64,000 nt of DNA from Leifsonia sp. fls2-241-R2A-40a (GTDB lineage: Bacteria; Actinomycetota; Actinomycetes; Actinomycetales; Microbacteriaceae). The DNA is taken from the NCBI RefSeq assembly GCF_030209575.1, contig NZ_JARVRS010000001.1:1116001-1180000 (forward strand), given 5' to 3'. Under the pieces are notes generated by a model, which was not told where the DNA came from, did no database searches, and was given only the letters and a program-made list of their open reading frames with translations. Every line of letters begins with the position of its first letter. Within the stretch, counting starts at the first letter, position 1. Position numbers and translations under genes: made by a program. Positions 29,344-59,273 of this stretch are shown piece after piece.

Positions 29344-30021
29344 ATGCATGCTCGTCGACAGCGCTCCTGGACGCTGCGCGTCCCCGCCCACTGGATCGTC
29401 TGGACCGTCGTCCTCTTCGCGCTCACGGTCGCCCTCGGCTTCGCCGCGAAGACCCTCCCAGCCCTGCGCCTTGCGGGACTGGATGCGGCGGTCAACCGCG
29501 TGAACGCTCCCGTGCTGGACGACCTCGCCCTCGTGCTCGACCGCCTCGACCACCCGGTGGTCGTCGCGGTCGTCCTGGCAGCCGTCTTCGTCGTGCTGCT
29601 GTTCGTCGTGGGATGGCGTCGCGCGCTCGGCGTGTGCGTCGCGACCGGCGCGGGATGGCTCACGACGCTGGTCGTGAAGACCGTGGTGGCGCAGCCGCGC
29701 CCCTCCACCGACGGTCTGACCCATCTGCTCCGCATCTCTCCCGCGACCCTGAGCTATCCGAGCGGCCATGTGGTGTTCGCCGCTGCCCTCGTCACGGCGC
29801 TGGCGACGGTGTGCGCCACCGTCCGCGCCCGCACCGTCGTGCTCGTCATCGGGGCACTGTTCGTCCTCGCCGTCTCGTGGTCGCGGCTGTACGTCGGCGT
29901 CCACTACGGCACGGATGTTGTCGGCGGCGCGCTCAACGGCGTCGCCGGTGCCCTGCTGATCGCCGGTCTCTGGAACGTCGCGACACGAGGTCGCCGAAAG
30001 GGATACGCAGTCTCTCGGTAG
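29344..30021 (+). CDS. PAP2-family membrane phosphatase
   Basis: 225 aa with about five to six membrane spans. The three PAP2 motifs are present: KTVVAQPRP, SYPSGHVVF and SRLYVGVHYGTDVVGG, giving the Lys/Arg, Ser/His and Arg/His/Asp catalytic set. Such proteins remove phosphate from lipid phosphates such as undecaprenyl pyrophosphate or phosphatidic acid at the outer face of the membrane. It opens a stretch of envelope-related genes. Confidence 0.92.
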   Translation: MHARRQRSWTLRVPAHWIVWTVVLFALTVALGFAAKTLPALRLAGLDAAVNRVNAPVLDDLALVLDRLDHPVVVAVVLAAVFVVLLFVVGWRRALGVCVATGAGWLTTLVVKTVVAQPRPSTDGLTHLLRISPATLSYPSGHVVFAAALVTALATVCATVRARTVVLVIGALFVLAVSWSRLYVGVHYGTDVVGGALNGVAGALLIAGLWNVATRGRRKGYAVSR

Positions 30022-30813: not shown

Positions 30814-30962
30814 TCCGGCGCCCGGCGTCAGCACCTGCCCACGACCTGGGTCTCTGCGGTCATGCGCGCTCTCGAAAAAACCTGTGGATCGTCGCGTCAC
30901 GATCGCGAATCGGCTGCGTCATCAACTACACACGCCCGAACCGCCCGTAAGGACCCGACCTT

Positions 30963-32939
30963 ATGACCCGTGAACTCGACGACGTCTCCGACACCGATCT
31001 GCTGGACCGCTCCCGCGAGGGCGACACCCTCGCCTACGGCGTGCTCTGGAAGCGCCACTGGCAGGCTGCGCGCGCGATGGCCGCCTCCGTGACCAGCCGG
31101 TTCGACCCGGACGACCTCGCCTCGGAGGCGTTCGCGCGCATCCTCAAAGCGGTCGAGAAGGGCAAAGGCCCCCGGTCGGGCTTCCGCTCGTATCTCGCGA
31201 CGACGATCCGCAACGTCGCCATCGACTGGTCGCGCCGCAAGACGACTCCCAACATCGAAGACCCCGATGGCATCGAAGACTGGACGTACAGCGAGCTCAC
31301 CGCCCTCGGCCGGATCGATCAGGAGACCGTCGCGCGCGCCTTCTACGCGCTCCCCGACAGCTGGCAGGAAGTGCTCTGGTACACCGAGGTCGAAGACATG
31401 GCGCCGCGCGACGTGGCGCCGCTCCTCGGCCTCACGCCGAATGCCGTCTCGGCGCTGGCCGTCCGGGCGCGCGAAGGGCTGCGGCAGGCGTGGATCAACG
31501 CACATCTCGCCGAGGCGGGTACCGACAATCCCGCCCACAGCTGGACACTCAAGAAGCTCGGCTCCTTCGTCCGCGGCAAGCTCTCCCGGGTCGAGCACCG
31601 CAAGGTGATGCACCACCTCGAGAACTGCGAACCGTGCTCCGCTGCGGCGGAAGAAGCGGACCGCGTCGGCTCGCGTCTCGCCCTCGGCATCCTCCCGCTC
31701 ATCCTCGGCGTGGCCGGCGCTGCGTCGTACACGGCGTGGGGGAACGGCGCCGGCACGGCGGTCGCCGCCACACTGCCCGGCGCCGGGGTGGCCGTACGCC
31801 GGGCAGGCAACCTGCGACACCTGTTCACCTCGGCGACGACGGGCTCCAACATCGGAATGGGAGCGGTGGCCGCCACCGTCGTCGCGGCCGCCGCACTGAC
31901 GGCAGGAGCCGTCATCGGGGCTCCGCAAGCCAACGAACCGGCGGCGTCGGCAGCGAATGCCGCTGCAGTGCCGCCGGGCACGGACGACGCACCCCGGCAG
32001 CCCGCCACCGGCGAGCTCTCCGCTCCGGCGGGTCCTGAGGACGGCCCGTCCGTCGAACCGCAGGACGGGCGCGCACCTGCGGCCGACTCGCCCCGCGCGC
32101 CGTCCACACCCCCACCATCGGACGTCTGGCCGGATACCGGCGCCGGCCGGCCGGCCGGTGACACGCCTCCGTCCACGACCACGCCGGCGGGCATGACCGA
32201 AACGCCGCCGGAGCCATCGCCGTCGGCGACACCCACACCGGCCCCGACCTCGACACCGGGGCCCACACCCTCGCCGACACCCTCCCCCCGCACCATGGCG
32301 GAGGCCCGCGAGGCCGCGGTCCGCACGGTCCCGCCCGCCGACACCCTGCTCGCCTACCGCGTCGACGACGCACCGGGGTCGACGACCGCCACCGATTTCA
32401 TCCACGGCAACAGCGCCGCCTACGCCGGATCGCCGGGGACGCCCGGATGGTCGTTGACCGACAGCGTCCTGCGCGCTCCCACCGACGCATTCAGCATCCA
32501 GATCTGGTTCCGGACGACGACGGGCGGTGGACGGCTCCTCGGTTTCGGCTCGGCCGCCCAGGGAACGTCCTTCTACTTCGACCGCCACCTGTTCCTCGCC
32601 GACGACGGAAGGCTGGTCTTCGGCGTGTTCCCCGGAGCCGTGCACACCATCGCGTCGACGGAGAGCTACTCCGACGGCAATTGGCACCAGGCGACGGCGA
32701 CGCTCTCCGTGGCCGGCATGGCGCTCTACGTCGACGGCGAGCGGGTCGCACAGGACCCATCGGTCACGCAGGCGCAGGACTTCTCCGGCTACTGGCGCGT
32801 CGGCTACGACAATCTCGCCGCCTGGGGTCCGGACACACCCACGCGCCGCCAGTTCGCCGGAGACCTCGGCTTCGCCGCCGTGTACAGCGACGCGTTGACG
32901 GCGGACCAGGTCCGGCTGCAATGGAACGAGAGCAATTGA
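30963..32939 (+). CDS. ECF sigma factor fused to zinc anti-sigma motif, membrane segments and LamG-like domain
   Basis: 658 aa in one uninterrupted frame; AAGGA lies 9 nt before the ATG. Residues 10-90 are sigma region 2 (DDLASEAFARILKAVEKG, YLATTIRNVAIDWSRR), and residues 120-180 are region 4 (LPDSWQEVLWYTEVEDMAPR, LLGLTPNAVSALAVRAREGL). H218-x3-C222-x2-C225 is a ZAS-type anti-sigma zinc motif. Hydrophobic stretches at about 239-257, possibly 262-278, and 297-319 flank a basic loop (RRAGNLRH), so the remainder is probably outside. A Pro/Thr/Ser-rich linker (330-443) ends in a concanavalin/LamG-like domain (about 455-655; FSIQIWFRTTTGGGRLLGF, YSDGNWHQATATLS, ALYVDGERV). It looks like a one-protein surface sensor and sigma factor. 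Confidence 0.9.
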   Translation: MTRELDDVSDTDLLDRSREGDTLAYGVLWKRHWQAARAMAASVTSRFDPDDLASEAFARILKAVEKGKGPRSGFRSYLATTIRNVAIDWSRRKTTPNIEDPDGIEDWTYSELTALGRIDQETVARAFYALPDSWQEVLWYTEVEDMAPRDVAPLLGLTPNAVSALAVRAREGLRQAWINAHLAEAGTDNPAHSWTLKKLGSFVRGKLSRVEHRKVMHHLENCEPCSAAAEEADRVGSRLALGILPLILGVAGAASYTAWGNGAGTAVAATLPGAGVAVRRAGNLRHLFTSATTGSNIGMGAVAATVVAAAALTAGAVIGAPQANEPAASAANAAAVPPGTDDAPRQPATGELSAPAGPEDGPSVEPQDGRAPAADSPRAPSTPPPSDVWPDTGAGRPAGDTPPSTTTPAGMTETPPEPSPSATPTPAPTSTPGPTPSPTPSPRTMAEAREAAVRTVPPADTLLAYRVDDAPGSTTATDFIHGNSAAYAGSPGTPGWSLTDSVLRAPTDAFSIQIWFRTTTGGGRLLGFGSAAQGTSFYFDRHLFLADDGRLVFGVFPGAVHTIASTESYSDGNWHQATATLSVAGMALYVDGERVAQDPSVTQAQDFSGYWRVGYDNLAAWGPDTPTRRQFAGDLGFAAVYSDALTADQVRLQWNESN

Positions 32940-33044
32940 CGTCTGCGCGTCATCGTCGGGCCCCGTCCGACGTCTATTCATGTGAGAGCGCGATTCGGGC
33001 ATCGCACTCTTACCTGGAGCCGCTTCGATAAGGGCGTCTCCGCC

Positions 33045-33094
33045 ATGGAGTGGCCCGCCGTCCGTCGGGTATCGAGCCGGCCGGGCCACTCCAT
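33045..33094. other. long inverted repeat (13-bp stem hairpin)
   Basis: ATGGAGTGGCCCG (33045-33057) and CGGGCCACTCCAT (33082-33094) are perfectly complementary, with a 24-nt loop. It lies 105 nt after the sigma-LamG fusion and 45 nt before a small gene. It could be a terminator or an operator; there is no T-run. Confidence 0.75.
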
Positions 33095-33427: not shown

Positions 33428-34546
33428 TCACCCGTTGCCGAGAGTGACGGTCGTGGTCTTCGTCGCGCCGTCGCGCACGTAGGTCACTGTCACCTTGTCC
33501 CCCGGTTTGCTGGTCAGCTGGATCGCGGTCAGATCGTCGACACTGCCGACCGGCTTGCCGTCCACCTTCGTGATGATGTCGCCGGCCTGCAGACCGGCCT
33601 GCTTGGCGGGGCCACCGGGGGTCACACCCTGGACGTACAGGCCCGGCTGCTGACTGCCGCCCTCCCCCGGCTGGATCGGGCTCACCACGATGCCGAACGT
33701 CGGATAGGTCACTTTGCCCGTATCGATGATCTGCTTCGCGATCGGGCTCGCGACCGCCTCAGGCACCGCGAAGCCGATTCCGACGCTGCCACCACCGGCG
33801 ACCCCGCTTGCGCTGGGCACCGTCGCGATGGCGGAGTTCACGCCGACGAGCCGTCCCTCGCAATCGACCAGCGCGCCCCCGGAGTTGCCCGGGTTGATGG
33901 AGGCGTCGGTCTGGATGGCGTCGGCGAGCACCGCGTTACGGTCACCGTCGCCCTGCACCGGCACGGTACGTCCCAGGGCGCTCACCACACCCGTCGTGAC
34001 CGTGCTGGAGAGTCCGAGAGGCGCGCCCAGCGCAACGACCGGTTGGCCGACCTTCAGAGTCGTCGAGTCGCCCTGTTCGATGGTGGGAAGCCCGGACGCG
34101 TCCACCTTGATCACCGCGATGTCCGCGCGCTCCGAACGCCCGATCAACTTGGCGGGGTGTGTCGACCCGTCGTTGTAGAGGACGACGATGTCGGCGCCTT
34201 CGGCCGCCGGCGCGATCACATGGTTGTTGGTGAGGATGTAGCCGTCGGAGGTGATGATCTCGCCGCTACCGGTGCCTCCCGATCCGTCGGCCGAGGTCAC
34301 GCCGATCGTCACGATCGTGGGAAGGACGTCGCGGGCGACTGTCTCGGCGTCGCAGACGGATTGAGACGGCACCGAGGCGATGCGGGACGGCATCATCCCG
34401 CCGATCGTCCCCGCCGTTCGGATCGCCAGGCCGCCGAGCGTTCCCGCTCCCAGCAGGATCACCGCAGCCAGGATCGCCAGGAGGACGATCGCCCAGACCG
34501 GGAACCGTCGTGAACGATGCGCGTGGTCGTCGCACGATGACGTCAT
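33428..34546 (-). CDS. membrane-anchored HtrA/DegP-type serine protease with PDZ domain
   Basis: 372 aa. A short cytoplasmic N-terminus and one membrane span (FPVWAIVLLAILAAVILLGAG, about 15-35) place the enzyme outside. The trypsin-like domain carries the triad: His in LTNNHVI, Asp in RADIAVIKV and Ser in NPGNSGGALVD. A PDZ domain covers about residues 280-370 (GLYVQGVTPGGPAKQAGLQAG). Two Cys (SVCDAE and VDCEGR) could form a disulfide. It degrades or senses misfolded envelope proteins. It is downstream of a second ECF sigma gene, separated by a hairpin. Confidence 0.95.
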   Translation of the reverse strand: MTSSCDDHAHRSRRFPVWAIVLLAILAAVILLGAGTLGGLAIRTAGTIGGMMPSRIASVPSQSVCDAETVARDVLPTIVTIGVTSADGSGGTGSGEIITSDGYILTNNHVIAPAAEGADIVVLYNDGSTHPAKLIGRSERADIAVIKVDASGLPTIEQGDSTTLKVGQPVVALGAPLGLSSTVTTGVVSALGRTVPVQGDGDRNAVLADAIQTDASINPGNSGGALVDCEGRLVGVNSAIATVPSASGVAGGGSVGIGFAVPEAVASPIAKQIIDTGKVTYPTFGIVVSPIQPGEGGSQQPGLYVQGVTPGGPAKQAGLQAGDIITKVDGKPVGSVDDLTAIQLTSKPGDKVTVTYVRDGATKTTTVTLGNG

Positions 34547-34693: not shown

Positions 34694-35254
34694 TCAGGCG
34701 GCGAGGACGAACTCGTCGCAATTCCGGGCGAGGGCCAGCCGCAGCCCCCGGCGGGCGCGTGCCGCGAGGGCGGTGGCTGCTCCGACGGTCATGCCGAGGT
34801 CGGCGGCCACCGCGGCCATCGGGAGGTCCTGCAGGGAGGTGAGGATGAGGACGCGCTGCCACCGCGCCGGCAGGCTGCGGAACGGCTTCTCGAGTTCTCC
34901 GAGGTCGGTGACCTCGAACTCGTAGCTGCCCACCGCAGTGTCCTCGTTGAAGGGGACGACGGTCGCACGCGAGTCACGGGCACCCCAGGTCGCTGCGACG
35001 TTGCGGATGGCGGTGCGGAGGTAGTGCGCGAATCCGAGCATCGGACCGTTTCCGTTGCGCAGCGAGCTCAGCACTTTCGCGAAGGCTTCCTGGACGATGT
35101 CCTGCGCGTCGTAGCGCGAGGTGGTCGAGCGGGCGACGTGGTGGGCCCAGCCCTGGTAGCGGTGCCACAGCTCTCCGAACACCGCGTGCTCGCCCTGACG
35201 GACGCGCTCGAGCAGCTCCAGGTCGGTGGGACGGACGTTGTTCGCGGTGGTCAT
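34694..35254 (-). CDS. ECF-type sigma-70 family factor
   Basis: 186 aa from ATG 35254; the ATG at 35257 lies only 1 nt from GGAGG, so 35254 is preferred. Region 2 (YDAQDIVQEAFAKVLSSLRNG, HYLRTAIRNVAATW) and region 4 (SLPARWQRVLILTSLQDLPM, GMTVGAATALAARARRGL) are clear. The sequence is visibly related to the sigma part of the LamG fusion at 30963 but has no anti-sigma or membrane extension. No separate anti-sigma gene is adjacent, so its control is not evident. Confidence 0.92.
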   Translation of the reverse strand: MTTANNVRPTDLELLERVRQGEHAVFGELWHRYQGWAHHVARSTTSRYDAQDIVQEAFAKVLSSLRNGNGPMLGFAHYLRTAIRNVAATWGARDSRATVVPFNEDTAVGSYEFEVTDLGELEKPFRSLPARWQRVLILTSLQDLPMAAVAADLGMTVGAATALAARARRGLRLALARNCDEFVLAA

Positions 35255-35345
35255 CATGCCTCCTCGGTCGGGGTGGCGGATGGGGTGTCTCCCGATCCGA
35301 TGACCCCAGACTCGATGCCGTGTCCGCGCCTCCAGAACCGGGGAA

Positions 35346-58865: not shown

Positions 58866-59174
58866 CTACAGGATGTTGACGTAGTAGCCGTCCGCGTACG
58901 ACCCCTTCGTCCACGTTGCGGAGCCACCGGGTGCAACGACCAACGTAACGCTGCCCGTTGTTTGGTTCTTGCTGTTGAACGAGACGATCTGGTAGCGACC
59001 GGACAGATTCGTGCATGGGTTCTTCGCTGTGGCCGCGGTCCGGGCGGCATTTACCGTCAGCGTGACCTTGGTGCAGGTGCCGGCTGCTTGGGCGGGAGCG
59101 GCTGCGATCAAGAGCGATCCGCCAACAACTGCGCTAGCGATGGCGATCGACACAGGGGTCGTGAAGCGGGACAT
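58866..59174 (-). CDS. small secreted protein, unknown function
   Basis: 102 aa from ATG 59174 (GGAGG 6 nt upstream). A clear signal peptide (SIAIASAVVGGSLLIAAAPAQA) with cleavage near APAQA-AG leaves a mature protein of about 75 aa with two Cys (GTCTKV and NPCTNL) that could pair, and a Thr/Val/Ser-rich beta pattern. No family recognised. It is directly followed by signal peptidase I, an unusual pairing that suggests dedicated processing. Confidence 0.75.
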   Translation of the reverse strand: MSRFTTPVSIAIASAVVGGSLLIAAAPAQAAGTCTKVTLTVNAARTAATAKNPCTNLSGRYQIVSFNSKNQTTGSVTLVVAPGGSATWTKGSYADGYYVNIL

Positions 59175-59255
59175 TTGTTCCTCCATTGGATCGTCCGCCC
59201 GTCAGAAGCCAAGAGGCCCCTATCCGTGGCGGTTATCCATATGGACGGAGCGAAT

Positions 59256-59273
59256 CGCGCGTCATGACGCGCG
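59256..59273. promoter_or_regulatory. 18-nt perfect palindrome
   Basis: CGCGCGTCATGACGCGCG is fully symmetric with no spacer, 82 nt before the secreted-protein ATG and after the POT transporter stop. With no loop it suits a protein site better than a terminator. Binding protein unknown. Confidence 0.6.

Follow-up and report, generated by a model that had tools for sequence, protein, structure and literature searches.

In the 64,000-nt stretch of Leifsonia sp. fls2-241-R2A-40a DNA analyzed here (the window), one gene joins an ECF sigma factor, a zinc anti-sigma (ZAS) domain, a membrane anchor and a LamG domain in a single polypeptide. With a probability of roughly 0.6, this protein is a membrane-tethered sigma factor of the ECF52/ECF53 type that is inhibited by its ZAS domain, exposes the LamG domain outside the cell and is released by proteolysis. 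In the proposed mechanism, the sigma domain would be held inactive at the inner membrane face by its own fused ZAS domain, and one transmembrane helix (about residues 298–320) followed by a flexible Pro/Ser/Thr stalk would carry the LamG/ConA-like domain outside, where it could bind a surface glycan or a glycan-linked protein, most likely part of the wall or exopolysaccharide that the cell itself makes. Altered binding would then expose the stalk or the membrane part to proteolysis, a site-1 cut followed by intramembrane cleavage, and the freed sigma part would transcribe surface genes and probably also its own gene. The ligand, the proteolysis, the targets and the autoregulation are the steps that we infer.

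The domains, the zinc ligands, their conservation and the family were all read from sequence. The gene runs without a stop as a single frame from an ATG at 30963 to a stop at 32939, and its GC content per codon position (0.68/0.59/0.87, in a genome of 70% GC) indicates a coding pattern. A 730-codon antisense open frame (30897–33089, minus strand) spans the whole sigma gene; it is a product of the high GC content and is not regarded as a gene. The preliminary description had listed one open 658-codon frame containing sigma regions 2 and 4, a zinc motif, hydrophobic segments with a basic loop between them, a Pro/Thr/Ser linker of about 110 residues and a LamG part, and each of these was borne out: the frame is open throughout, Pfam and NCBIfam profile searches recovered the sigma, zinc and LamG parts, the loop holds three Arg and no acidic residue, and residues 335–447 are 53% Pro, Ser and Thr (Table 1). 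The entire architecture was found by sequence search in three Leifsonia genomes, which excludes a chance arrangement. Identities to these orthologues were 81–86% in the sigma part, 50–60% in the zinc part, 56–66% in the LamG domain and just 25–31% in the linker (residues 321–447), indicating that the LamG domain is constrained, whereas the linker serves as a spacer.

Table 1. Features of the sigma/anti-sigma/LamG gene in the window, and outside modules of its relatives by locus.
Feature	Position in window, or locus	Strand	Basis
Candidate autoregulated ECF-type promoter, GCGTCAYGA-N14-CGTC, 42 bp ahead of ATG	30894..30920	+	conserved at 4/4 loci
Sigma/anti-sigma/TM/LamG fusion protein, 658 aa	30963..32939	+	ORF, NCBIfam/Pfam, Leifsonia orthologues
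ECF sigma part, residues 1–185, regions 2 and 4	30963..31517	+	TIGR02937, Pfam; 81–86% identical in Leifsonia
ZAS motif, ligands H192, H218, C222, C225	31536..31637	+	zf-HC2; family alignment
Hydrophobic segment 1, residues 239–259, with conserved Pro	31677..31739	+	hydrophobicity/charge statistics
Hydrophobic segment 2, residues 299–319, likely sole crossing	31857..31919	+	insertion energy and charge statistics
Pro/Ser/Thr-rich linker, residues 335–447, fast-changing	31965..32303	+	composition, identity to relatives
LamG/ConA-like domain, residues 497–650	32451..32912	+	Pfam, Foldseek, VIA-align
Bacterial Ig module in sigma relatives	L056, L058, L150		extracted relatives
Fn3 module in sigma relative	L055		
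DUF11 module in sigma relative	L070		
Ricin B module in sigma relatives	L013, L016, L144		
NPCBM module in sigma relatives	L140, L142, L143, L149		

The outside part was assigned to a fold by three routes. The Pfam model Laminin_G_3 matched residues 497–650 with an E-value of 6e-16. An AlphaFold model built from 4 sequences had a low mean pLDDT of 49, with 60–85 in its core, and a Foldseek search with it placed LG, pentraxin and LG-containing PAPP-A structures on top (PTX3, E 1.6e-5; perlecan LG3, E 3.4e-5). Aligned by VIA-align to a laminin alpha-2 LG domain, the model gave a Z of 11.0 and an rmsd of 3.1 over 124 residues. The jelly-roll C-terminus that the preliminary description had put up for testing is thus supported as a predicted LG jelly roll, with the model confidence being low.

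When the LamG region was searched in 17 genomes, a tandem pair of LamG repeats, 44–48% identical, was found in all four Leifsonia-type genomes, within one secreted protein of about 1500–2100 residues (open-frame length). The copy that was scanned (L075:7152–11834, minus strand; other copies at L176–L178) also contains PKD repeats. This giant LamG gene directly follows a bacterial sugar transferase gene in three genomes, and in the genome of the window it belongs to an exopolysaccharide cluster that also encodes a sugar transferase and an AAA/Wzc-like protein. Such LamG repeats also occurred in 3 of the 13 other genomes, and kinship confounds the association. The sensor domain thus has close relatives in a very large secreted protein encoded among exopolysaccharide genes, and the most plausible ligand would be a glycan from the exopolysaccharide that the cell itself makes.

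Relatives were searched with residues 1–246, since full-length queries missed them, probably due to the Pro-rich linker. Within the order, 44 of 149 genomes matched the sigma/zinc half (E 1e-25), and within the class 104 of 297 did so (E 1e-20), some stand-alone sigma factors being among the matches; no viral relatives were found. The extracted relatives mostly carry a Pro/Ser/Thr-rich stretch followed by widely differing secreted modules, and among these relatives a LamG domain was seen in the four Leifsonia-type proteins alone. In the tree, the LamG members formed one group and the NPCBM members another, with the deep forks and the root left open. Several relatives (L066, L068, L074, L076–L078 and L088) are about 980–1350 residues long, and in L066, the one of them scanned, parts of the outside region had no Pfam match. 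Genes for SpaA-type pilins or LPXTG-like proteins lie within a few kb of relatives L009, L012, L016, L055, L062, L065, L070, L073 and L088.

The modules of the relatives, which are not lectins alone but include surface-protein types such as Ig, Fn3 and DUF11, and the surface protein genes beside several relatives would also fit an external domain that is mainly an anchor or adhesin-like part, by which the sigma factor is attached to the wall or a surface layer and senses a mechanical or envelope state without a specific glycan. This appears rather unlikely, as the LamG, ricin B and NPCBM folds include numerous carbohydrate-binding members. A speculative generalization, less likely than not, is that actinobacteria may share one sigma/ZAS/transmembrane chassis into which outside modules are swapped. 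Each module would be a copy from one of the cell's own proteins, either of the surface or linked to exopolysaccharide, and would let the sigma factor read the state of the cell's surface layer, here through a LamG domain that also occurs in the giant LamG/PKD protein encoded in the exopolysaccharide cluster. As the outside module differs between lineages and the sigma/zinc core stays, chimeric tests are straightforward.

The ECF membership of the N-terminal part follows from the presence of regions 2 and 4 within a short part and a match to the ECF model (TIGR02937 sigma70-ECF, residues 28–176, E 1e-17, above the NCBIfam cut-off). Sigma70_r2 matched residues 33–94 (E 1e-9, above the Pfam cut-off), and Sigma70_r4_2 weakly matched residues 129–171 (E 0.02, under it). 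ECF sigma structures also ranked first in a Foldseek search with the N-terminal model, at a weak E of 0.004; the model was rejected as a view of ZAS docking, being too weak (pLDDT 54, with the sigma4 part low). The zf-HC2 model of Pfam matched residues 195–225 above its cut-off, with an E of 6e-6, or 1e-6 for the N-terminal part alone. Besides the H-x3-C-x2-C motif already placed at 218–225, a fourth ligand that had gone unnoticed, H192, lies 26 residues ahead of H218 and completes a classical ZAS set, H192-x25-H218-x3-C222-x2-C225. The pattern [H/C]-x25-H-x3-C-x2-C is kept family-wide, position 192 being Cys in 56 of 62 aligned relatives and His in the window protein.

A complete cysteine-containing zinc site would also suit a sigma factor that acts while membrane-attached or by a change of shape, in which binding of a ligand, or redox/zinc loss at the ZAS, loosens the grip without any cleavage. 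Conformational change is how other ECF groups with C-terminal extensions work (PMC8999054), and SCO4117 of ECF52 is phosphorylated, a further non-proteolytic input (PMC5826349). Nevertheless, a long stalk and an outside domain exceed the needs of a cytoplasmic redox switch, and the LamG domain is conserved, making activation without cleavage improbable. Release by proteolysis is retained as the preferred reading.

Topology was evaluated in 63 relatives from charge counts and a simple insertion score weighted by position. Segment 2 was the better membrane segment, with the lower insertion energy, in 60 of these; its leading flank was more positive than its trailing flank in 61, and in 58 the next 40 residues carried a net negative charge. 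A single crossing at residues ~298–320 is therefore favoured by this sequence-based prediction, which places the C-terminus outside the cell, as claimed before. Segment 1, whose Pro is kept in 53 of 62 aligned relatives, probably does not cross and may be a membrane-surface or re-entrant piece. Although segment 1 scores 1.7–2.1 in the four Leifsonia proteins, hydrophobic enough that by sequence alone it may cross as well, a protein with both segments spanning the membrane and a cytoplasmic LamG part is very improbable, given the conserved Pro and weaker score of segment 1, the basic loop between the segments, the acidic stretch following segment 2, and the typically secreted nature of a Pro/Ser/Thr stalk and of LamG, NPCBM, ricin B and Ig modules.

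A PAP2 phosphatase gene adjoins the sigma gene in all three Leifsonia relatives, and HtrA lies beside it in two (Leifsonia CL147 lacks it at the syntenic position); no M23 peptidase was present near the sigma gene across the three Leifsonia loci compared. In the whole family, HtrA was close to just 2 of 63 members. The earlier suggestion that the nearby HtrA (33428–34546) is the cleaving protease was therefore rejected as a genomic inference for a dedicated protease, as it is missing in CL147 and near 61 of the 63 relatives; HtrA may still cut the sigma protein. In three Leifsonia genomes, the LamG sigma gene also keeps a stand-alone ECF sigma gene nearby (34694–35257, minus strand, in the window), whose product shares about 40% identity with the sigma part and has no anti-sigma part.

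The candidate promoter ahead of the sigma gene lies at a distance plausible for an autoregulated ECF promoter. Its motif is kept at all four Leifsonia-type loci, with an N15 spacer in one, and a conserved GTAAGGACC is located ahead of the sigma start. A promoter common to the genes at 29344, 30112, 30963 and 33428 had been put up for checking, but the motif ahead of 30963 does not recur upstream of the others: the best scores upstream of 29344, 30058/30112, HtrA (34546) and 35257 were 9–10 of 13, at background level. The region ahead of the giant LamG gene likewise lacks the motif, and control of that gene by the same promoter was rejected. Genome-wide, 6 matches vs. 1 control were counted in the own genome and 3–9 vs. 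0–2 in three relatives, which is no clear enrichment, and no regulon defined by the motif is claimed. A second exact copy of GCGTCAYGA-N14-CGTC (0.12 expected per window) lies at 59244–59270 on the minus strand, some 70 nt ahead of position 59174, where the frame of a small secreted protein begins that three Leifsonia genomes lack.

Ordinary ECF sigma/ZAS pairs, SigW/RsiW and SigR/RsrA, have the same sigma regions and the same kind of zinc motif, but are encoded by two separate genes, unlike the one polypeptide here. ECF53 and ECF48 comprise actinobacterial fused sigma/anti-sigma proteins with a C-terminal zinc finger, one or two transmembrane helices and long extensions, and some ECF53 members carry glycosyl hydrolase or carbohydrate-binding domains (PMC8999054, PMC10766802). 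The window protein shares with them, as compared by description only, the zinc finger, the transmembrane helix and the long extension.

A carbohydrate-binding module, together with a zinc finger, a transmembrane part and a Pro-rich stretch, is known from SCO4117 of ECF52, for which carbohydrate binding, proteolysis and a freed sigma domain were proposed earlier (PMC5826349, PMC8999054), so the preliminary view of a lectin-type outside sensor on a sigma factor as unusual is not supported. SCO4117, the first characterised member of its group, lies behind the TetR gene SCO4118/atrA, and when cut to the sigma domain alone it retains part of its activity in S. coelicolor (PMC5826349). Among the relatives, a TetR gene lies directly upstream of the sigma gene in L140, L141 and L143 (three checked), as at SCO4118/atrA, so the NPCBM members show the SCO4117/ECF52 arrangement; we infer that they come from a Streptomyces-like genus. 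In the sigma/zinc half, NPCBM relatives share 39–44% identity with the window protein (one member, 39% across 233 residues). With L140 as query, the window protein was the best match in its genome (E 1.9e-42 vs. 4e-20 for the next).

Like SCO4117, the window protein is actinobacterial and unites sigma, zf-HC2, a transmembrane part and a Pro-rich stretch; unlike it, it carries a LamG/ConA-like module without an NPCBM match (smart00776/PF08305; Pfam), has His instead of Cys as its fourth zinc ligand, and is flanked by different neighbours. Judged by domain layout, a membrane-tethered one-component sigma factor of the ECF52/ECF53 type is the best explanation. No report of a LamG-bearing sigma factor was found in the literature searched; the idea of sensing plus release is a rediscovery, and the LamG sensor is the new element. 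Through the domain that it has in common with the secreted protein of the exopolysaccharide cluster, the Leifsonia LamG form offers a candidate ligand class, the cell's own exopolysaccharide.
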